22,206 nt of DNA from a virus, in the IMG/VR virus record IMGVR_UViG_3300015374_000074, positions 1 through 22,206 of that record; one strand, 5' to 3'. The notes under the pieces were generated by a model. It searched no databases. It was not told the origin of the DNA and saw nothing but the letters and a program-made list of their open reading frames with translations. Position numbers and translations under genes: made by a program. The number at the start of each line of letters is the position of its first letter. Position 1 is the first letter of the stretch. Below, piece by piece: positions 981-9,200 of this stretch.

Positions 981-1405
981 GTTTCTGGCATCGTGAAGGT
1001 CCACGAGGTGACGGCGACATTGCCGCCGGCGACGATGGACGTGGTGTTCAACTGAAGGTCGAAGCTCGATGTGGTGCCGACCGAACCGTCGATCACTGCC
1101 GTGCCGGAACCATTGATGGCGCGGAACCAGGTCGCGGTGCCGGTGGCGTCGGCGGACGAATCGGCGGTGATGCTCGATGCGGTGGCGCGCCCGCCCGGAT
1201 TGGCGTCGGCGGCATTGCCGAAGGCCGGGTTCGACAGGGTGAGTTCGGCCAGGAGCACCTGCGAGGACACCGCCGTATCGGGATCGTTCGGCTGGGTGCC
1301 GTCGTAAATCCGCAGTTTGCCGGCGCCGCCGATATCGAGGCGGTCGACGATGGCGTCGCAGGCAGCGATGGCCGCGGCATTAGAGATTCGGGTTTGCAGC
1401 GCCAT
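977..1405 (-). CDS. Virion-associated hypothetical protein (beta-rich)
   Basis: A 142-residue protein starting MALQTRISNAAAIAACDAIV, with a GGAGGAGG ribosome site about 6 bases upstream. A short N-terminal helix is followed by IGGAGKLRIYDGTQP and then a Thr/Ser/Ala-rich stretch likely to form beta strands, ending VAVTSWTFTMPET. Proteins with this start and composition are common in phage structural blocks; I do not know a named family. It overlaps the portal gene end by 26 bases and the next gene by 4, so the three are probably translationally coupled. It could be a decoration, tail-tube-adapter or fibre-associated protein. Confidence 0.75.
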   Translation of the reverse strand: MALQTRISNAAAIAACDAIVDRLDIGGAGKLRIYDGTQPNDPDTAVSSQVLLAELTLSNPAFGNAADANPGGRATASSITADSSADATGTATWFRAINGSGTAVIDGSVGTTSSFDLQLNTTSIVAGGNVAVTSWTFTMPET

Positions 1406-3746
1406 TCTGGCCTCCTCCGGCTATCTGCGGTTGCGCGGTGTAAGTGCGCCCATCGGGCGTAGTGATCGTTTTCGGCGCCTGGATCGCCTGCATGAGTTGG
1501 GCATTGCTCTGCATGATCAGTTGCCCGATCTGCTGCATGGCGGCCTGGAAGGCCTGGGCAATCTGGTCGATGGGGTCGAGCATCTGTTGCCCTTCGGCAA
1601 TTTCGGGCGGAATTTCTGGTGCCGCGGCGCCGTTGGTCGGACCAGCCGGGCGCTTTGCCGCCAGGGTCATGATGGCCTGATTGCGACTGTTGCGCAGGCC
1701 TTGGCTCGCCTCCGCTTGGCTCTGCTGCAGCTTCTGCTGCGCCGCCATCTCGGCCTGCTGCTGCGCCGCCTGGGCCGCCTGCGCTTGCTGGTCGAGCGTC
1801 TGCATGTGCTGCTGCTGCCCGAATTGCAGTTCTTGCTGGCTCTGCTGGCCGGCGAGCGCCAATTGGTGATTGAGCTTCTGCGCCTCCAGTGCCTGCTGCT
1901 GTTCGAATTTCTGCTGGTTCTGCGCCAGATCCATGTCGTGCATCTGCTGCTTGTGGGCGAGTTCGGCCTGCATGCCCTGCTGCTTGAGGCCGTGCTCCTG
2001 CTGCATCATCTGGCCGCGCATCTGCATCTCCTGCTGCGTCGCCTGTGCCTTGACCTCTTCCGGCGACGGTTGCGGCGGCGCTTGAGCCGCTGCCTGCGCC
2101 TTCTGCTCGAGCGACTGGATGGTCTTCTCGATGGTGTCTTCCAATTCCCTCGCCGTGCGGAAGCCGCGCGTCACGAACAGCATGATCTGGCCGATCAGCG
2201 GCAGCAGGTCGGGTACCGCCTGCGCCATCGGCATCGCCTCCTTCATCATGCCGCCGATGGCGGTGGCGAACTCGATGCGGCGCTGCTTTTCGGTGTTCTC
2301 GTCGGGCTGGATGGTCGAGTCGGTTTCGATGTCGATCCTAAACGATCTCAGCCGGTCGTCTTTGAGCAACTGGAAGGCGGCGATGAGGTCTTCCTGCTGC
2401 TGCTGATATTCCGGCGTCAGCATGTTGGCCATTTCGAGCAATTGCTGGGGCTCGAAAGCTTCGGCCATGATCTCGCAGGAAATGTGCAGAAGATCGCGGG
2501 CGAAGCGCTGGATATCCTGCTGCCGGTCGCGGATGCGTAAAGACCCGGTCTGCGTCTTGATTTCCTGGGCGCCCAGAGTTTCGTTCGGATCCGTCGCACC
2601 CCTGAGAATGTCGCTCAACCCGGTGATCTGGTAAACATCGTCGATCAGCTGCCGACGCAGTTCAACGCACGCCGTGATGGTGTCGGCCACCTGTTTGATC
2701 GGCAGGAAGATGATGGCGTTGGCGCCGCCGCGCTCCCCGAAAGCCGCCCACGATTCGATGCCGATCATTTTATTCTCGACATTGGGACTGAGCGCCGTCT
2801 CGATAGCTTGGGTGCTATCCTCCGCGCCCTTGGGGTAGAAGCCGACCAGTTTCAGACTATCGGTCAGCGACGCGATGCGCCGCGTCAGATCGTCGATTTC
2901 CTCCGCTTGGTCCTGATAATAGCGATAGTCGGGAATCGGAATCAGGCTGTCCGAGGTCAGCGTCGCGAACAGCGGCCGCGGGCACGGCCAGAAGTCCTTC
3001 AACGTGTAGAGCGGGTCCGCGACCTCGAGCGGCCTCTTGCCGCTGGGCGCGATGAAATAGACCTTCGATGCGGTGCGGTCCCAAATTTCCCAGACGGAAT
3101 ATTTTCCCTCCAGCGCTTTCTTCTCGGCATCGGTGAGGCCCTGCTTGGGGACATTGTCCGGTGACATGCCGCCGAGGTCCGAATCCGACAGGCCCTTGAA
3201 TCGCTCCTTCATCTCGGGCTTGGAGAAATAGCTGCGCTTGCCGACCCACGTGACCTCAGACCAATTTCTCCCCGGCTTGAATAAAAAATCCCGCCAGTGG
3301 ATGTAATCGAAGGCCAGCATGTCCTCGTTGGCGCGGCGCACCCAGACGATGCCGCGACCTGGCAGGATCACGTCGTCGCGGGCGAGCTTCATTGCGTCAT
3401 CCAGCTTGCCGCATTCGAATTGGTACGCCGCGACGCGCTCGAGCAAGGTGCCGACGAGCATCCCCGGGGGATCCTTGTCTTTGAAGCGGCGCGAGATCTC
3501 GGGCTTCGGGGTCTGCGCGTACAAGGCCGGCTTCAGGATTTCCGCATTGCTCCAGAGCATGGCGAACTTGCGTCTGGCCGAGCGCGTCTGATCGCCCTGC
3601 TTGCGATACAAGCGGATGATCTTGTCGGCCGCTTCGTAGAACTCCTGATTGTATTTATTGGCGCGCTCTAATTCTCTGAGCCAGCGTGCCTGAATGTCGG
3701 CGGGCTTGTCGGTTGATTTTGGCTGATCTTGCGGCTCTTCGGCCAT
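1380..3746 (-). CDS. Phage portal protein with long Gln-rich C-terminal tail
   Basis: At 788 residues this matches the size of large podovirus-type (P22-like) portals, which form the dodecameric DNA gate at one capsid vertex and bind terminase. The N-terminus carries basic helical segments (AADKIIRLYRKQGDQTRSARRKFAMLW) split by the usual portal clip/stem regions; residues about 390-420 include the conserved-looking ITGLSDILRGATDPNETLGAQ typical of these portals. Residues about 545-685 are an unusual Gln/Ala/Met-rich helix, likely coiled coil. It follows the large terminase and a small HTH gene, the expected order. No clear ribosome site precedes ATG 3746, and translation may depend on coupling to the overlapping upstream gene. 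The portal call is strong; the P22-like assignment is moderate. Confidence 0.92.
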   Translation of the reverse strand: MAEEPQDQPKSTDKPADIQARWLRELERANKYNQEFYEAADKIIRLYRKQGDQTRSARRKFAMLWSNAEILKPALYAQTPKPEISRRFKDKDPPGMLVGTLLERVAAYQFECGKLDDAMKLARDDVILPGRGIVWVRRANEDMLAFDYIHWRDFLFKPGRNWSEVTWVGKRSYFSKPEMKERFKGLSDSDLGGMSPDNVPKQGLTDAEKKALEGKYSVWEIWDRTASKVYFIAPSGKRPLEVADPLYTLKDFWPCPRPLFATLTSDSLIPIPDYRYYQDQAEEIDDLTRRIASLTDSLKLVGFYPKGAEDSTQAIETALSPNVENKMIGIESWAAFGERGGANAIIFLPIKQVADTITACVELRRQLIDDVYQITGLSDILRGATDPNETLGAQEIKTQTGSLRIRDRQQDIQRFARDLLHISCEIMAEAFEPQQLLEMANMLTPEYQQQQEDLIAAFQLLKDDRLRSFRIDIETDSTIQPDENTEKQRRIEFATAIGGMMKEAMPMAQAVPDLLPLIGQIMLFVTRGFRTARELEDTIEKTIQSLEQKAQAAAQAPPQPSPEEVKAQATQQEMQMRGQMMQQEHGLKQQGMQAELAHKQQMHDMDLAQNQQKFEQQQALEAQKLNHQLALAGQQSQQELQFGQQQHMQTLDQQAQAAQAAQQQAEMAAQQKLQQSQAEASQGLRNSRNQAIMTLAAKRPAGPTNGAAAPEIPPEIAEGQQMLDPIDQIAQAFQAAMQQIGQLIMQSNAQLMQAIQAPKTITTPDGRTYTAQPQIAGGGQNGAANPNL

Positions 3747-3933
3747 CGTGCGGTGTCAATCCGAATTGGCGGCAAATCTGCCGGATACGTTCGCGGCTGA
3801 CGCCATACTCGTCAGCCAGTTTCTGCAGCGTGACACCGGCGCTGCGTGCCCGCACCATAGGCGCGGCCCTTTCCGCCGTCCAGTAAGGCTTGCCCTTGCG
3901 GGTGCGGGGATGCTCGCCATTGCCATATTTCAT
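3655..3933 (-). CDS. Small HTH protein (sigma-70 region 4-like)
   Basis: A 92-residue basic protein beginning MKYGNGEHPRTRKGKPYW. Residues about 36-58, LQKLADEYGVSRERIRQICR, read as a helix-turn-helix closely resembling sigma-70 region 4, where SRERIRQI is the recognition helix. The C-terminal 30 residues are Arg/Lys-rich. The ATGA overlap with the large terminase stop fixes the start; a longer in-frame start at 3972 would sit inside terL. Its last 92 bases overlap the portal gene in another frame. It may be a DNA-binding regulator of late genes or a packaging-associated DNA-binding protein; it lacks the other sigma domains, so it is not a full sigma factor. Confidence 0.8.
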   Translation of the reverse strand: MKYGNGEHPRTRKGKPYWTAERAAPMVRARSAGVTLQKLADEYGVSRERIRQICRQFGLTPHDGRRAARSAKINRQARRHSGTLAQRIRARQ

Positions 3934-5351
3934 ACGCGGATACCTCGCTCGGGCCGGTCGTTCAGCTTCCACAGGTCATTGAGCGTCAGTTCCGGCAAAT
4001 CCCGGCGCTTGGCCTCCACCGGCGGATCCGCACGCACCGTCCGCCATGCCATGGCGAGATACCTGAACGCATCGGCAAAATGGCTGGTCCAGTCGTGCAG
4101 CGGGGTATCCTTGAACACCTTTTTCTCTTCGTCATACTCCACCCGGTAGAGGCGCAACGCCTCCAGTGCCTCGCCGCACTGGGGCTCATTGAACCACGCC
4201 AGCGGGATGGCAAGGCGGGCCGCGGCGATGCCGTCGTCGACCTTGTGGGCGGGCACCAGCACCGGCTTGCGGCCGAGCCTTATGAAGGTCTCGATGCGGG
4301 TCTTGCCGGAGCCGAGTTCGCGCACCCGGGCATCGTGGGGCACATAGTCGAGGCCCCATTTGCATTGCGGGGCATGGGCGCCCTTCCACTTTTCGAGCTT
4401 CGCCACCACGTCCTCGATCACCTCGTCGTGAGCGCCGGAAATACCGGCCAGGACGCGGAGTTCATTGCCGGAGACCTGGTAGAGCCACACGGCCATATTG
4501 GCGCCTTTTCCCAAATCCCAAGCTGAGTTGAGAGGCAGCGCCGGGTCGGCCATGAGGGGCACGAGCCGCCCGGCGCGCTCCGCTTTGGCTATCGCCTTGG
4601 CGAACATGGCCCCTAGCACGGCGGCTTCGAACGAGCAGTAATACTCCTGCTCGATTAAGGCGTCGCCGGCGTCGAGACCATAGAGGCCATGATATTCGCG
4701 GCGCTGCACCTCGACCAGATTGTGCGGGAATTCGGTGTCCTCGACCGTCAGCACCTCGCTAAACCAGCCATCCGGGTTAGCCGGCGACCATGGGTTATCG
4801 CGCGCCATCTGCAGCATGCGAAACGCGTGATTGCCGCGGCCGCGAGGGGTGGTGATGAACGAGGCCCAGCCGCCGTTCTGGGCCAGGATCGGGGCGAGAT
4901 AGGCCCAGGCAGCCGGGTTGGAGAGGGCGAATTCCGAGAACGTGATGCCGACCGGCGGCGAACCGACGAGCGAATCGGGATCATCTGATCCGACTAATTT
5001 CCACGTCGAGCCATTGATCAGTCGGATAAACATGTCGTGTTCCAGCGTCGTCTCACGCAGTTCACGCGGAAAGGCTTCGTCAATTCTACGCTGGCCGGTC
5101 GCCGGATTAATTGCTTCCCAGATCGCCTTGCGGGCTTGCGAATACTGTGGGAGCGCATGCCAATAGTTGCCCTTGCGCTGCCAAGCCGCGACCATCGTCT
5201 TGTGTAACTGCACGTCATCTTTGCCGGCACGCCGGTGCCAGATGAGCAATTCGCGCTTGCAGCCCATCTGCCAAGCCCGCCAGCTATTCCTCTGGTACGG
5301 CCTTGCCTCCCACTGGTTGGGCAGGCGAATCCATTTCGTCGGCGTGTCCAT
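3930..5351 (-). CDS. terL: Terminase large subunit
   Basis: A 473-residue packaging motor ATPase and nuclease. Residues 40-45 (RRAGKD) form the Walker A-like loop in the variant typical of one terminase group, followed by the Walker B/catalytic Glu region GITFSEFAL and the coupling motif ITTPRGRGNHAF. The nuclease half shows the acidic metal-binding start AWDLGKGANMAVW and the C-terminal LHDWTSHFADAFRYLAMAW. A GAGGA ribosome site lies about 7-8 bases upstream of ATG 5351. The gene overlaps the end of the small terminase by 68 bases and is followed by the HTH gene with an ATGA overlap. Length is normal for the family. Confidence 0.96.
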   Translation of the reverse strand: MDTPTKWIRLPNQWEARPYQRNSWRAWQMGCKRELLIWHRRAGKDDVQLHKTMVAAWQRKGNYWHALPQYSQARKAIWEAINPATGQRRIDEAFPRELRETTLEHDMFIRLINGSTWKLVGSDDPDSLVGSPPVGITFSEFALSNPAAWAYLAPILAQNGGWASFITTPRGRGNHAFRMLQMARDNPWSPANPDGWFSEVLTVEDTEFPHNLVEVQRREYHGLYGLDAGDALIEQEYYCSFEAAVLGAMFAKAIAKAERAGRLVPLMADPALPLNSAWDLGKGANMAVWLYQVSGNELRVLAGISGAHDEVIEDVVAKLEKWKGAHAPQCKWGLDYVPHDARVRELGSGKTRIETFIRLGRKPVLVPAHKVDDGIAAARLAIPLAWFNEPQCGEALEALRLYRVEYDEEKKVFKDTPLHDWTSHFADAFRYLAMAWRTVRADPPVEAKRRDLPELTLNDLWKLNDRPERGIRV

Positions 5352-5676
5352 TGATTGTCCTCAACGGCGGATCCAGATAGCTGACGATCTGTACCCCTAT
5401 CTGCTGCATCGGGGTGCCGCTATTGCGCACTTCCAGCGGCAGCAGGCGCGGATAGATCGTCGACCAGAATAGTGTTTCATTGGCCGGGGTATCGAGCGCC
5501 CATGTGGCCAGCCGCTTCCAGCCGCCGATCTCTTCCGCCGCCTGCATGATGGTATCGCGCGCCGCGATGGTCATCTTGTTCGGTATGCCCTTCGGTCTGC
5601 CAGGTCCGGCGACATGGCGCGGAGGCGGCAAGCGCTTCGCCGGCTTGGGCGGCGCCGGCACATGGTCTTTGGCCAT
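5284..5676 (-). CDS. terS: Terminase small subunit (GRPKGxPNK type)
   Basis: A 130-residue protein with the basic motif GRPKGIPNK at residues 26-34, typical of a common group of phage small terminases that recognise the packaging site. A helical region follows (MTIAARDTIMQAAEEIGGWK). The start at ATG 5676 gives MAKDHVPAPPKP; a TTG start at 5709 would place the coding start on top of the -35 box, so I prefer 5676. There is little sign of a Shine-Dalgarno sequence, and a TAAAAC -10-like box ends only five bases before the ATG, so a leaderless message is possible. It overlaps terL by 68 bases and starts the packaging operon. Confidence 0.85.
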   Translation of the reverse strand: MAKDHVPAPPKPAKRLPPPRHVAGPGRPKGIPNKMTIAARDTIMQAAEEIGGWKRLATWALDTPANETLFWSTIYPRLLPLEVRNSGTPMQQIGVQIVSYLDPPLRTINGHADEMDSPAQPVGGKAVPEE

Positions 5677-5681
5677 GCCGG

Positions 5682-5709
5682 GTTTTATCGCACGTCTGCC
5701 CGGTGTCAA
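5682..5709 (-). promoter_or_regulatory. Putative promoter for terS operon
   Basis: On the minus strand TTGACA (5709-5704) is followed after 16 bases by TAAAAC (5687-5682). The predicted transcription start would fall at or next to the A of the terS ATG (5676). The -35 box is part of a GGTGTCAA octamer shared with other promoters of the window. Confidence 0.45.
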
Positions 5710-5732
5710 AGCTTGTCAGGCCGGTTGACACC
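5702..5732. repeat. Inverted octamer pair GGTGTCAA / TTGACACC (operator candidate)
   Basis: GGTGTCAA at 5702-5709 faces TTGACACC at 5725-5732 across a 15-base gap, between the divergent terS and PP-loop genes. Each copy supplies the -35 TTGACA of one of the two divergent promoters. The same octamers recur at 9227-9245 and 13795-13802. A shared operator is inferred. Confidence 0.6.
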
Positions 5733-5753
5733 CGCAGGTCAGGTCCGTAGCGT
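5725..5753 (+). promoter_or_regulatory. Putative promoter for the PP-loop/methyltransferase operon
   Basis: TTGACA at 5725-5730 is followed after 17 bases by TAGCGT at 5748-5753. The ribosome site GAAGGAG and ATG 5777 follow. The segment just after the -35, ACCCGCAGGT, is the exact reverse complement of the ACCTGCGGGT found after the -35 at 13795. Confidence 0.55.
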
Positions 5754-5776
5754 CGTTCAACGAAGGAGATTTCCCC

Positions 5777-6562
5777 ATGCTCACTGTCATCTCGCTCGGC
5801 GCCGGCGTCCAGTCCACGACGATGGCCTTGATGGTCAAGCATGGCGATCTGCCGCCGGTCGACGGCGCCATCTTCGCTGATACCGGCTGGGAGCCGAAGA
5901 AGGTCTATGCCCATCTCGACTGGCTCGAGACCGTCCTGCCGTTTCCGGTTCACCGCGTCTCGGCCGGGGATCTGCGCGCCAATGCGATGAGCCGCAGCAA
6001 TACAACCGGCGGTCGTTTTTCTGTCATCCCTTGGTACGTATTGCACGCCAATGGCGACGAGGGCATCGGCCGCCGCCAATGCACCAAGGAGTACAAAATC
6101 ACCCCGATTTTGCGGAAGGTGCGCGAACTCCTGGGCGGCAAGACGCCGAAAAGCGGGGCAACCATGCTGATCGGCATTTCGATGGATGAGGCGATCCGCA
6201 TGAAGCCGAGCCGGGTCCAGTATATCGTCAACCAGTGGCCACTCATCGACAAGCGCATGAACCGCCGCGATTGCCTGAAATGGCTGGCCGATCGGCAATA
6301 TCCGACACCGCCGAAATCCGCCTGCATCGGCTGCCCGTATACCCCCGATAGCCGCTGGCGCGATTTGCGCGACAACTCGCCGGAGGAATGGCGCGATGCC
6401 GTCGAGGTCGACCGCGCCATCCGCCATTTGCCGAAAATGCGGGCCGAGCAATACATGCATAGCCAGCGGGTGCCGCTCGACCAAGCCGACCTGCGCACCC
6501 ATGACGAAATAGGCCAGCCCGACCTGTTCAACAATGAATGCGAAGGCATGTGCGGTGTCTAA
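5777..6562 (+). CDS. PAPS-reductase-like PP-loop protein with Cys cluster
   Basis: A 261-residue member of the adenine-nucleotide alpha-hydrolase / PAPS reductase superfamily. Residues 6-16 (SLGAGVQSTTM) are the modified PP-loop that binds ATP or an adenylyl group; FADTGWEPKKVY at 33-44 is the second family signature. Cys102 in RRQCTKEYK, Cys183/Cys186 in CIGCPY and Cys255/Cys259 in ECEGMCGV could hold an iron-sulfur cluster or carry sulfur, as in DndC-type and tRNA-thiolation enzymes. GAAGGAG precedes the ATG by about 8 bases. It shares an operon, with an 8-base overlap, with a DNA methyltransferase, hinting at nucleic-acid modification; true PAPS reduction is less likely because no sulfur-assimilation genes are nearby. 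The substrate is unknown. Confidence 0.88.
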   Translation: MLTVISLGAGVQSTTMALMVKHGDLPPVDGAIFADTGWEPKKVYAHLDWLETVLPFPVHRVSAGDLRANAMSRSNTTGGRFSVIPWYVLHANGDEGIGRRQCTKEYKITPILRKVRELLGGKTPKSGATMLIGISMDEAIRMKPSRVQYIVNQWPLIDKRMNRRDCLKWLADRQYPTPPKSACIGCPYTPDSRWRDLRDNSPEEWRDAVEVDRAIRHLPKMRAEQYMHSQRVPLDQADLRTHDEIGQPDLFNNECEGMCGV

Positions 6563-7094
6563 ACGCGCTCCCGGCATGCCACCGCGCTCGCTCTGGCCGA
6601 CGCCGCGCGAAGCGGTCCTCCCGCTGCTGCCGCATCTCGAGCCGGATTCGCGTTTCGTCGAGCCCTGCGCCGGCGATGGTGCTCTCGTCCGGCATCTGCA
6701 GAAGGCGCGCGGCGGCTGGCACTGCGTCGCTGCCTGGGACATCGAGCCGCGTGGCCCCGGCATCGAGCGTGGCGATGCCATGACCATGATCCCGCCGGAA
6801 GACGCCGAATACTTCATCACCAACCCGCCGTGGGAGCGCGATGTCCTGCATCCGCTGATCGAGCACCTGTCGGCGCAGCTGCCGACGTGGCTGCTGTTCG
6901 ATGCCGACTGGATGCATACGCGGCAATCGGCGCCCTACATGCGCTGGTGCCACGTCATCGTCTCGGTCGGGCGGGTGCAGTGGATCCCCGGCAGTGACAA
7001 TGTCGGCAAGGACAATTCGGCTTGGTATCTGTTCGACCGCATCCGCAAGCTGACGAAATACGGGACAGTTTTCCGTGGCCGGGACGCCGGGTGA
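6555..7094 (+). CDS. SAM-dependent N6-adenine-type DNA methyltransferase
   Basis: About 179 residues when read from GTG 6555, which has AAGG eight bases upstream and an 8-base overlap with the preceding gene; an ATG at 6534 is an alternative. EPCAGDGA at about residues 36-43 is the SAM-binding motif I, and TNPPW at 89-93 is the catalytic motif IV of amino-methyltransferases (usually DPPY/NPPY; here Trp ends it). The short length and lack of a clear target-recognition domain suggest a minimal phage enzyme. It probably modifies adenines to evade restriction, or acts together with the PP-loop protein. Methylation of RNA or protein cannot be excluded, since NPPY-type motifs also occur there. Confidence 0.85.
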   Translation: MSKRAPGMPPRSLWPTPREAVLPLLPHLEPDSRFVEPCAGDGALVRHLQKARGGWHCVAAWDIEPRGPGIERGDAMTMIPPEDAEYFITNPPWERDVLHPLIEHLSAQLPTWLLFDADWMHTRQSAPYMRWCHVIVSVGRVQWIPGSDNVGKDNSAWYLFDRIRKLTKYGTVFRGRDAG

Positions 7095-7111
7095 TTGCTA
7101 AACTGCGGGTG

Positions 7112-7179
7112 TCAGGGGCCGGATTCAACGCAACCCATGCCGTCCCAAGCCGGGGTAAGCCTCAACCCCCGGCCCCTGA
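7112..7179. terminator. Large hairpin between convergent operons
   Basis: TCAGGGGCCGG (7112-7122) and CCGGCCCCTGA (7169-7179) are perfect 11-bp inverted arms. Inside, CCGGGGT (7150-7156) can pair with ACCCCCGG (7165-7172) with one bulge, giving alternative folds. It lies between the ends of a plus operon (stop 7094) and a minus operon (stop 7162). There is no T-run, so a bidirectional structural block or processing site is possible. Confidence 0.5.
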
Positions 7180-7350
7180 TCCCTCCTCCCTGATCTTCGC
7201 GCGCTCTTCCTGCCGCGTCCTTTGCATGAGCCATTCGAGGTAGTCAGCCATCTGGCGCGCGTTCAGCCGCAACAAGGCCTCGATGAAGTCATCGTCGAAG
7301 CAATGCCGGTATTGCGGGGCAACGCGGTCGCGGATGTCGCGGCTCTTCAT
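7162..7350 (-). CDS. Small hypothetical protein
   Basis: A 62-residue charged protein, MKSRDIRDRVAPQYRHCFDD at the start and a helical, Arg/Glu-rich second half (ADYLEWLMQRTRQEERAKIR). Its ATG lies one base after the stop of the upstream gene (TGA-A-ATG), so it is probably translationally coupled. It is the last gene of the C5-methyltransferase operon, and its stop codon lies inside the inner arm of a large hairpin. No family is recognised. Confidence 0.65.
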   Translation of the reverse strand: MKSRDIRDRVAPQYRHCFDDDFIEALLRLNARQMADYLEWLMQRTRQEERAKIREEGSGAGG

Positions 7351-7351
7351 T

Positions 7352-7738
7352 TCAGCCCATAATCTTGTTCAGTGCCGCCTCGACGAGCGCGCGCAGCCCT
7401 TCATGTTCGCGCAGGTACGCCGAGCGGCCCATGGTACAGTCGCATTGGCCGGCGCCGCCTAGGCCCTCCGGATAGGGCGCGCTGCCATATGGCGTCACCC
7501 GCATGTGGACGCGCCGGTAGGCATCCTCGCGCCGTGAGCGCTGAATCAGGTCAATGATGGCCGCCTCGCGCGCCTGATAGCTGCTCAACTGATCCTGCAG
7601 AGCGATGATCTCGCGGCGCATCTGCAGATTGTCGGCATGCAGGCACTCGATCTCGATCTCGTCGCCGGGATCATTCGGTGCCGGCTTCGTCTCGCCGGGA
7701 TCGCTGGGCTTCGGCTTTGTGTCATCAAACGGTGTCAT
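7352..7738 (-). CDS. Hypothetical protein with Pro-rich N-terminus and coiled coil
   Basis: 128 residues. The N-terminus has an imperfect repeat (KPKPSDPGETKPAPNDPGDE), likely disordered, followed by a predicted coiled coil (about residues 30-70, LQMRREIIALQDQLSSYQAR). The C-terminal third holds GAGQCDCTMG, with a paired Cys that could bind metal. It begins by an ATGA overlap with the 61-residue gene upstream and is followed one base later by the 62-residue gene. Function is unknown; membership in the methyltransferase operon suggests an accessory role. Confidence 0.72.
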   Translation of the reverse strand: MTPFDDTKPKPSDPGETKPAPNDPGDEIEIECLHADNLQMRREIIALQDQLSSYQAREAAIIDLIQRSRREDAYRRVHMRVTPYGSAPYPEGLGGAGQCDCTMGRSAYLREHEGLRALVEAALNKIMG

Positions 7739-7920
7739 GGTTCAGGCTCCTCCTTGGTTGATTTCGGCGGCCATAGCCGCATGATGTCCTCGCGCTTGAA
7801 ATACACGTCCTTGTAGATCGCGCCGGAGACGCCGACGATGCACAGTTGACCGTCGATTTCCGCGATGCGGGAGCCAGGTCCGCACTCTTCCGGCGGAATT
7901 ACCACTCGTTTCTTGCTCAT
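7735..7920 (-). CDS. Small hypothetical protein in methyltransferase operon
   Basis: 61 residues starting MSKKRVVIPPEECGPGSRIA. The start is fixed by an ATGA overlap with the stop of the cytosine methyltransferase, and the end by an ATGA overlap with the next gene. A short beta-rich core (IAEIDGQLCIVGVSGAIYKD) is followed by a charged tail. No domain recognised. The chain of three coupled overlaps downstream of the methyltransferase argues that these proteins are made together. Confidence 0.75.
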   Translation of the reverse strand: MSKKRVVIPPEECGPGSRIAEIDGQLCIVGVSGAIYKDVYFKREDIMRLWPPKSTKEEPEP

Positions 7921-9200
7921 GCGATGTCCTCCACCATATCGATGCGCTGGCAGATCCAGCGAACGCAGTTGACCGCCATGCCATTGCCGAGCGCCTTGTA
8001 GCGCGGGCCATCCGATTTGCGCCCCGGCAGGTCCGTGTAGCCATCCGGCAAGCCCATCAGGCGCTCGCACTCAAGCGGCGTCAGGCGCCGCACCGACGCC
8101 ATTGAGGCGACAGCAGGCGGGTGCGCCTTGGCGTTGAGGCCGTGGCAGGGATCGCCCGCTTGCGGCTTTGAGCGGTTGTCCCGGCTGGTGACCTGCGTCG
8201 TGTCGAAGGCGATCAGCGGCGTTCCGCGCCCGCTGCCGTCCTCGCTGGCATCGAAACCATCGGCGCGCAGCGAATGCGCGATGAGCGGCGCTCCGCGTCC
8301 GGTGCCGTCTTCAGTCGCGCAGCGGCATTGCGTGGAAAGGGAATGCGCGACGAACGTCTCGCTCTCGAAATCGAGGCGCCCATGCGGCCCGCCATGGGAA
8401 TTCCTGGCGGTGGCAACATCTATCGGGCCGCTGGTGTTGTTGCCGCCGAAAGCGATGTAGGCGCCATGGCCGTCCAGATCATTCTGGCGCTCGAGGCTAT
8501 GGCCGAGCGGCCCGGCGGCGCCCGCGATCAATCCGCCGTCGCAGTCGTCGCAGTCGAAGTCGGTGCCGAGACCGCCACCGCCGCGAGTGCGCGCTGCAAT
8601 GGTAGGGGCAAGGTCTTTCCCCGCTTCGCGGCGCGGCGCAGGATCCCCCGACAGGCTTTGGCGCTCAAGTAGTACCGCTGCGGCGCGTCGCCAGTCAGGA
8701 TGTCCGATAACGAACACACGCCGCCGGCGCTGCGGAACGGCTCGAGGATGGCTGTCCACTCGGACAAACTGAGCGTCAAGCACTCGCCAGGTCGCATGAT
8801 ACCCGAGTTCTGCCAAGCCCCGGAGCAGGGTGCCAAAGTCTGATCCACCGTTGGATGACAGGACACCGGGGACGTTCTCCCAGACCAGCCAGCGGGGCCG
8901 ATAGCGGCGAGCGATGGCAAGATAGGTGAGCATGAGGTTGCCACGTGGATCATCCAATCCCGCTCGCAGTCCGGCGATGCTGAAACTTTGGCAGGGGGTT
9001 CCGCCGGCCAAAACGTCAATTGCGTGGTCGGGCCAGGACTCATAGTTGCGGATGTCTCCATGGTTGGGGATGCCTGGATAGTGGTGGCGAATCACCGCCG
9101 AGGGGAATTTCTCGTTCTCAGCAAAGAACACCGGCGCCCAGCTGCTCGGCACGCCAGCGGAGAAGCACTCGATGCCTGAACAGACGGTGGCGTAGCGCAT
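7917..9200 (-). CDS. DNA (cytosine-5) methyltransferase
   Basis: A 427-residue C5-cytosine methyltransferase, which transfers a methyl group from SAM to cytosine in DNA. Visible motifs: SAM-binding CSGIECFSAG (7-16), the catalytic PCQ loop GGTPCQSFS with Cys70, ENVPG (108-112), QRRRRVFVIG (157-166), and the C-terminal RRLTPLECERLMG (371-383) and ALGNGMAVNC (403-412). The variable target-recognition region (about 170-365) is long, Gly/Asp-rich and holds a repeat, EDGTGRGAPLIA (297-308) and EDGSGRGTPLIA (320-331). No restriction endonuclease is seen nearby, so it is probably a solitary phage enzyme protecting against host restriction. It is transcribed divergently from 9306. Confidence 0.96.
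   Translation of the reverse strand: MRYATVCSGIECFSAGVPSSWAPVFFAENEKFPSAVIRHHYPGIPNHGDIRNYESWPDHAIDVLAGGTPCQSFSIAGLRAGLDDPRGNLMLTYLAIARRYRPRWLVWENVPGVLSSNGGSDFGTLLRGLAELGYHATWRVLDAQFVRVDSHPRAVPQRRRRVFVIGHPDWRRAAAVLLERQSLSGDPAPRREAGKDLAPTIAARTRGGGGLGTDFDCDDCDGGLIAGAAGPLGHSLERQNDLDGHGAYIAFGGNNTSGPIDVATARNSHGGPHGRLDFESETFVAHSLSTQCRCATEDGTGRGAPLIAHSLRADGFDASEDGSGRGTPLIAFDTTQVTSRDNRSKPQAGDPCHGLNAKAHPPAVASMASVRRLTPLECERLMGLPDGYTDLPGRKSDGPRYKALGNGMAVNCVRWICQRIDMVEDIA

Follow-up and report, generated by a model that had tools for sequence, protein, structure and literature searches.

A phage PHROG 424 protein labelled as PAPS reductase is closest in sequence to SspD and lambda NinC, and its gene travels without the methyltransferase gene that it overlaps

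SspABCD is described as a system that makes single-stranded DNA phosphorothioation (PMC8092258), and its SspD protein, taken here together with the BREX type 4 PAPS reductase, is the Ssp counterpart of DndC, a protein reported to bind a 4Fe-4S cluster through three of its cysteines and perhaps to carry sulfur on another cysteine dyad (PMC10853773). Phage-borne copies of genes of this kind are not new to the literature, those in mycobacterial prophages having already been likened to DndC (PMC8092301), and phage copies have been read as sulfate reduction genes (PMC10434257, PMC6145125, PMC9144972). As for ninC of phage lambda, it is given as nonessential in one source (PMC10695390) and classed as poorly understood in another (PMC3224144).

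The DNA analysed here (the window) is 22,206 bases long and makes up an entire IMG/VR virus record. Its predicted genes include those for a terminase large subunit, a portal protein, a VapE-like helicase, a DUF3799/exonuclease VIII-like nuclease and an AAA_24-type ATPase, by which it is a tailed phage, whole or in part. A sibling of this virus is represented by a 4,906-base contig (L410, IMGVR_UViG_3300015373_000426) that is 100% identical to window positions 1159-6064. An earlier, sequence-only reading had pointed to two genes on the plus strand, and both open reading frames exist. Gene 1 (5777-6562, +), which on inspection of the sequence is preceded by a Shine-Dalgarno-like AAGGAG (5763-5768, +), encodes a PP-loop protein of 261 residues. 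Gene 2 lies in a longer frame (6534-7094, +), but since its relatives begin with MGKRS, its start is most likely the GTG at 6555 (V8 of the long frame), which gives a protein of 179 residues (6555-7094, +) and, with the gene 1 stop at 6560-6562, bears out the 8-base overlap that had been noted. The promoter that the two genes were said to share found no counterpart, as a consensus scan of 5500-7400 on both strands, limited to the sigma-70 type, gave no sigma-70-like site. Co-transcription is nevertheless plausible, because both genes are on the plus strand between minus-strand genes (on the terminase side and, on the other, a C5 DNA methyltransferase). The product of this last gene, a C5-cytosine methyltransferase (7917-9200, -), has an unusual repeated glycine-rich insert ('AHSL..DG.GRG.PLIA') at about residues 190-360, and its residues 16-309 additionally match PHROG 864, labelled DNA primase.

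Over its whole length (residues 1-261), the gene 1 protein matches PHROG 424, which is labelled phosphoadenosine phosphosulfate reductase (2e-48), and it also matches the PADLOC profile for SspD (2e-14); the NCBIfam DndC profile gave no match at E 0.1, and Pfam PF01507 is matched weakly, by 14 of 22 close family members at E up to 1. When a profile built from 37 dereplicated family members (the integrated elements among them drawn from the 57 of 80 loci carrying both ECEGMCG and [LI]SLGAGVQS) was compared by hhalign with four families (SspD, NinC, CysH and DndC), SspD came out as the nearest (E 7.9e-16, probability 98.6), followed by lambda NinC (1.1e-7, with a NinC profile of two dereplicated sequences only), CysH (E 0.0017, probability 15.6, from a set chosen with the pattern [EKR]C[GA][LI]H in which some rows have doubtful starts) and DndC (E 0.013). 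A maximum-likelihood tree of 62 rows gathers 38 mobile-element sequences in a single clade (99/97), which is separate from SspD itself and falls with SspD and NinC on one side of the tree, DndC and CysH lying on the other (95/90; the DndC-CysH join is a possible long-branch artefact); lambda NinC groups with SspD (95/79), outside the clade of the window protein. Profile comparison and tree together thus place gene 1, as far as sequence goes, closest to SspD and lambda NinC and not to CysH. The likeness to a PP-loop iron-sulfur protein of the DndC kind that had been proposed is therefore upheld, through the nearest profile (SspD) and equivalent core cysteines, whereas the idea of an undescribed system is not, since PHROG 424, to which gene 1 belongs as a typical member, is a known and widespread family.

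The same reading had recommended structure prediction and comparison. The AlphaFold2 model of the gene 1 protein (mean pLDDT 85, final 11 residues disordered) has CysH and APS reductases as its top Foldseek matches in the PDB (E 1.3e-4). VIA-align returned PAPS reductases, the nitrile synthetase ArtA, the PP-ATPase MesJ, LarE and NcsA at Z 12.4 to 10.4, with neither an SspD nor a DndC chain among the chains listed, which tells against neither of them, and because these neighbours lie within about two Z units of each other, the fold alone cannot pick a function. The best solved chain by profile for the gene 1 family is PptA (PDB 21fy, 3e-6), which shares the CxxC region, in a match that spans about 110 positions only. 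PptA is also all that an SspD matches at E 0.01 (3.8e-5), and chain C of 21fy is the only solved chain clearly matched by both SspD and the mobile family.

The cysteines are more telling. The five that had been singled out (102, 183, 186, 255 and 259) are all there, and the count was one short, Cys 166 being the sixth. Their conservation was followed in an alignment of 26 sequences, namely the gene 1 protein, 22 family members (16 from phages, five from plasmids, and lambda NinC) and three SspD; the 16 phages were hand-picked from 49 records found by tblastn, which makes for a fairer test of conservation than loci found by motif. Cys 102 (6080-6082, +), within RQCT..YK..P, and Cys 183-x-x-Cys 186 (6323-6334, +) are cysteine in 26 of 26, the three SspD included. 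A C-terminal pair, here Cys 255 and Cys 259 (NECEGMCG, 6539-6553, +) in the tail that is disordered in the model, is present in 24 of 26 as counted by eye from the tails, the other two being PARCL1pr, which has CxC, and an Oscillospirales row that contains neither the PP-loop region nor the pair; in phiGD20-1 the pair's first cysteine falls just beyond the stretch compared. The spacing of this pair varies: proteobacterial members and several others have CxxxC, actinophages CxxxxC, lambda NinC CSESC and SspD CxxC. Cys 166 (6272-6274, +) is kept in close relatives only, among which all six cysteines are invariant, and is absent from two Vibrio phages, lambda NinC and SspD.

Comparison of these positions with the patterns of SspD (C88, C173/C176, C274/C277), APS-type CysH (CC, CxxC and the single cysteine of ECGLH) and DndC (C145, C270/C273 and two more) shows that the predicted gene 1 protein has the layout of SspD, with three core cysteines and a C-terminal pair, and not that of CysH. 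What it shares with SspD is a PP-loop fold, the RxCT..xK..P cysteine, the CxxC and the C-terminal pair. With CysH and APS reductases it has in common the fold, a C-x80-CxxC spacing and a cysteine in the C-terminal tail, but the profile match is weak, ECGLH is absent (the tail reads NECEGMCGV), and in place of the CC..RK..PL of the APS-reductase type there is C102-T103. DndC, larger and with extra cysteines, has in common with gene 1 the CT..LK cysteine and the CxxC, although by sequence it is a weak match. Lambda NinC (Orf290) has five equal cysteine positions and yet is only 20% identical to the gene 1 protein. By analogy, the cluster and sulfur-dyad roles described for the DndC cysteines (PMC10853773) may carry over to gene 1.

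The PP-loop that had been recognised in gene 1 is also present, but as a variant, S6-L-G-A-G-V-Q-S13 (residues 6-13; 5792-5815, +), rather than the canonical SGGxDS, Gln taking the place of the Asp. All 22 readable family members have Gln, Asn or Thr in place of this Asp (lambda NinC has SGGRTS), whereas all three SspD keep it, the SspD loop reading SGGKDS against GAGVQS in gene 1. Since the loss is family-wide, ATP activation may differ from that in SspD and DndC or be absent.

Where the family occurs provides further clues about what it might do. A gene 1 homologue was found in 183 plasmid records, of which 110 are from Agrobacterium. The bacterial-genome loci analysed (L162-L241, the best 80 of 452) were selected by two motifs, ECEGMCG and [LI]SLGAGVQS, so conservation of these motifs among them is partly by construction. 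In these high-GC loci, where neighbour clustering was swamped by antisense ORFs, ArdC was searched for directly. Of these best 80 of 452 loci, 55 have a same-strand ArdC homologue upstream, and in 51 of the 80 its stop is inside or abuts the gene 1 frame; within the set, ArdC identity drops to 36% while the gene 1 homologue stays at 65% at least. Dereplication leaves the link in 21 of 40 loci at 90% and in 1 of 13 clusters at 70%, and it is thus essentially that of one clade. On the plasmids pTi_CFBP4442 and pAt_Tul002, the gene 1 homologue overlaps the end of the ArdC gene by one base, and the ArdC protein of pTi_CFBP4442 carries the ArdC N-terminal and zincin domains. Tight overlapping ArdC/PHROG 424 pairs of this sort are seen on alphaproteobacterial plasmids and integrated elements (L162-L241; L242:9024-10888). 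Papers joining ArdC with PAPS reductase or PP-loop proteins were not found among the matches listed, and the word 'PAPS' is absent from the polyvalent-protein paper (PMC5512222), so the link between ArdC and PHROG 424 may be unreported within the literature searched.

ArdC is described as an antirestriction, ssDNA-binding protein (PMC7213743), and ssDNA-binding genes are common next to the phage copies too. An SSB-like or NinB-like gene, searched for with one seed protein per family, abuts gene 1 in 28 of 80 viral loci (the best 80 of 480), or in 12 of 37 after dereplication, and in phage lambda, whose NinC belongs to PHROG 424 (1.2e-89), ninC directly follows NinB, a neighbour found in some gene 1 relatives as well. 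The lambda gene (L251:3082-3954) encodes the SspD-like cysteine layout that NinC and the window protein have in common. Taken with the single-stranded DNA phosphorothioation made by SspABCD, the ArdC, SSB and NinB neighbours and the NinB-NinC order suggest, at the level of sequence and gene order, an ssDNA-linked task for the family, although ssDNA-binding neighbours could merely mark a position in replication modules, and ArdC, NinB or SSB were not recognised beside gene 1 in the window.

Partners of known systems are another matter. SspA, SspB and SspC were not found at gene 1 family loci, nor were dnd partners at gene 1 loci: when 229 neighbour ORFs from 18 Dnd/Ssp loci were compared, one matched family loci (seven phage loci, none in the window), whereas 91 of the 229 matched another Ssp/Dnd locus in a control. 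The earlier remark that no other dnd genes are seen agrees with this. A sulfur donor was not found near the gene 1 family; in Mycobacterium phage phiT46-1 (L388:3983-5527), an NrdH-like glutaredoxin, a possible thiol donor, is encoded two genes downstream of a PAPS-reductase-like gene. The family is sporadic: in a single-phylum sample of 299 genomes, 6 have it (the genome at the centre of the search included). It is therefore not a conserved metabolic gene, while PF01507 genes above the cut-off are present in all seven bacterial genomes tested.

Gene 2 is a methyltransferase gene, as had been proposed. It matches PHROG 799, a family of phage DNA methyltransferases (2.1e-30), its motifs I (FVEPCAGDG, 6654-6680, +) and IV (NPPW, 6822-6833, +, residues 97-100 of the long frame) are invariant or nearly so among relatives, and its model contains a methyltransferase domain with an M.TaqI-like catalytic fold (VIA-align Z 13.8, Foldseek 6e-7). 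With 179 residues it differs from M.TaqI in having no room for a target-recognition domain, and the NPPW motif alone is compatible with RNA or protein methylation too. From these sequence features, it is a putative orphan adenine-type methyltransferase gene, separate from gene 1.

Do the two genes nevertheless form a unit? The sequence-only reading had joined them in one modification cassette, and a reduced cassette combining sulfur and methylation would fit the 8-base overlap on one strand, the enclosure of the pair by opposite-strand genes, the DNA methylases annotated less than 6 kb from three phage copies of the gene 1 family, and a Streptomyces plasmid (L250:3486-5677) in which a DNA cytosine methyltransferase gene overlaps a PHROG 424 gene by 4 bases and a DnaB-like gene comes next. 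However, a scan of viral contigs found a gene 2 homologue near one of the 80 best of 480 gene 1 relatives (L002, on the opposite strand and about 2.5 kb off) and a gene 1 homologue near none of the 80 best of 181 gene 2 relatives. Truncated loci do not account for the missing partners, since the flank reaches 700 nt or more downstream in 72 of the 80 gene 1 loci and exceeds 900 nt upstream in 67 of the 80 gene 2 loci. Among annotated phages, 49 records with gene 1 and 39 with gene 2 have no accession in common (the lists being compared by eye), megablast of the gene pair region against phage records gave no match, and terminase-related phages have a homologue of either gene at none of 79 loci, L410 set aside. 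A DNA methyltransferase motif was counted near gene 1 in 1 of 37 loci and near the terminase in 1 of 79, but the motif was too strict and this count is set aside. The closest gene 1 relative (L001) matches the window at 87% nucleotide identity over 778 nt that cover gene 1 and otherwise in four short segments only, and a gene 2 homologue was not found in the stretch of L001 analysed. Between these two 90%-identical copies dN/dS is 0.137, so gene 1 is a genuine gene under purifying selection, which travels alone. The genes do not recur together, which is one of the two outcomes that the sequence-only reading had named as refuting it, and a conserved gene 1-gene 2 modification unit is rejected; the cassette is largely refuted as a conserved unit, and as an explanation of this locus it is highly improbable.

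What, then, does gene 1 do? The reading that we prefer, tentatively, is that it encodes a stand-alone SspD-like sulfur-transfer enzyme of a mobile-element family, which would protect or modify the DNA of the element. In such an enzyme (i) the three core cysteines would bind a [4Fe-4S] cluster, leaving a site open, (ii) the mobile C-terminal dithiol would take sulfur from a host cysteine desulfurase or from thioredoxin/glutaredoxin, (iii) the dithiol would hand this sulfur to a substrate activated within the nucleotide pocket and (iv) that substrate would be the DNA of the incoming element, or a nucleotide bound for DNA, probably while single-stranded, the benefit presumably being protection from host restriction. 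Chance mosaicism may have brought gene 2 next to gene 1; alternatively, gene 2 may be a second anti-restriction gene that is co-expressed with gene 1. Counted in favour of this sulfur-transfer reading are the SspD profile and tree, the conserved cysteines, the adjacency to ArdC and SSB/NinB, the NinB-NinC order, the dN/dS value, the PF01507 genes of the hosts and the sporadic presence; counted against it are the lost PP-loop Asp, an ArdC link confined to one clade, a window without ArdC, NinB or SSB, and the lack of a nearby sulfur donor or Ssp/Dnd partner. It has a more specific version, to which we give a low chance, in which phages and conjugative elements use the SspD-like enzyme, with an ssDNA-binding partner (ArdC, NinB or SSB) and a host cysteine desulfurase, to put sulfur into their own single-stranded DNA or otherwise mark it.

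Each of the alternatives explains part of the same evidence. That gene 1 encodes CysH (PAPS/APS reductase) and serves sulfate assimilation as an auxiliary metabolic gene is what the PHROG 424 label, the top Foldseek matches, the weak PF01507 matches and a mobile cysteine tail resembling that of CysH would lead one to expect, but it is very unlikely, because ECGLH is absent, the core is CT..xK..P with three cysteines rather than CC..RK..PL with four, profile and tree favour SspD, all seven bacterial hosts tested have PF01507 genes of their own, and the neighbours inspected are replication, recombination or antirestriction genes. A three-cysteine cluster with an open site suits tRNA thiolases, and LarE (with its [4Fe-4S]), NcsA and TtuA are among the structural neighbours (Z about 10-11), so that gene 1 might instead thiolate RNA or a cofactor in the manner of TtcA, NcsA or LarE, for example to protect tRNA during infection. 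This is rather unlikely in view of the closeness to SspD, in a comparison that covered SspD, NinC, CysH and DndC, and of the inspected annotated neighbours, which include no tRNA-modification gene except in one Arthrobacter phage, where a DpdA-like gene lies 1.3 kb downstream. An SspD-like shape that has lost its PP-loop Asp and is encoded on mobile elements next to an antirestriction gene could also be a decoy, that is, an inhibitor of host Ssp/Dnd or of another PP-loop enzyme that performs no chemistry itself; this is quite unlikely, since six cysteines invariant in close relatives and a dN/dS of 0.137 argue that redox or sulfur chemistry has been retained.

In conclusion, the gene pair is not a system, and the useful result is the family-level reading, namely that of a stand-alone SspD-like sulfur enzyme for DNA protection. 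Phage 'PAPS reductase/cysH' genes are taken as auxiliary sulfur metabolism in papers such as PMC10434257 and PMC9144972, while the SspD-like sequence, the missing CysH motif, the ssDNA-binding and antirestriction neighbours and the PF01507 genes in seven of seven hosts point elsewhere. If this family-level reading is right, one class of genes annotated as auxiliary metabolic has been misread, and the dispensable ninC of lambda offers a ready test of PHROG 424 function. Were the more specific version to hold as well, with elements marking their own single-stranded DNA, an unrecognised anti-restriction modification would lie behind many phage 'cysH' genes, and perhaps behind lambda ninC too.
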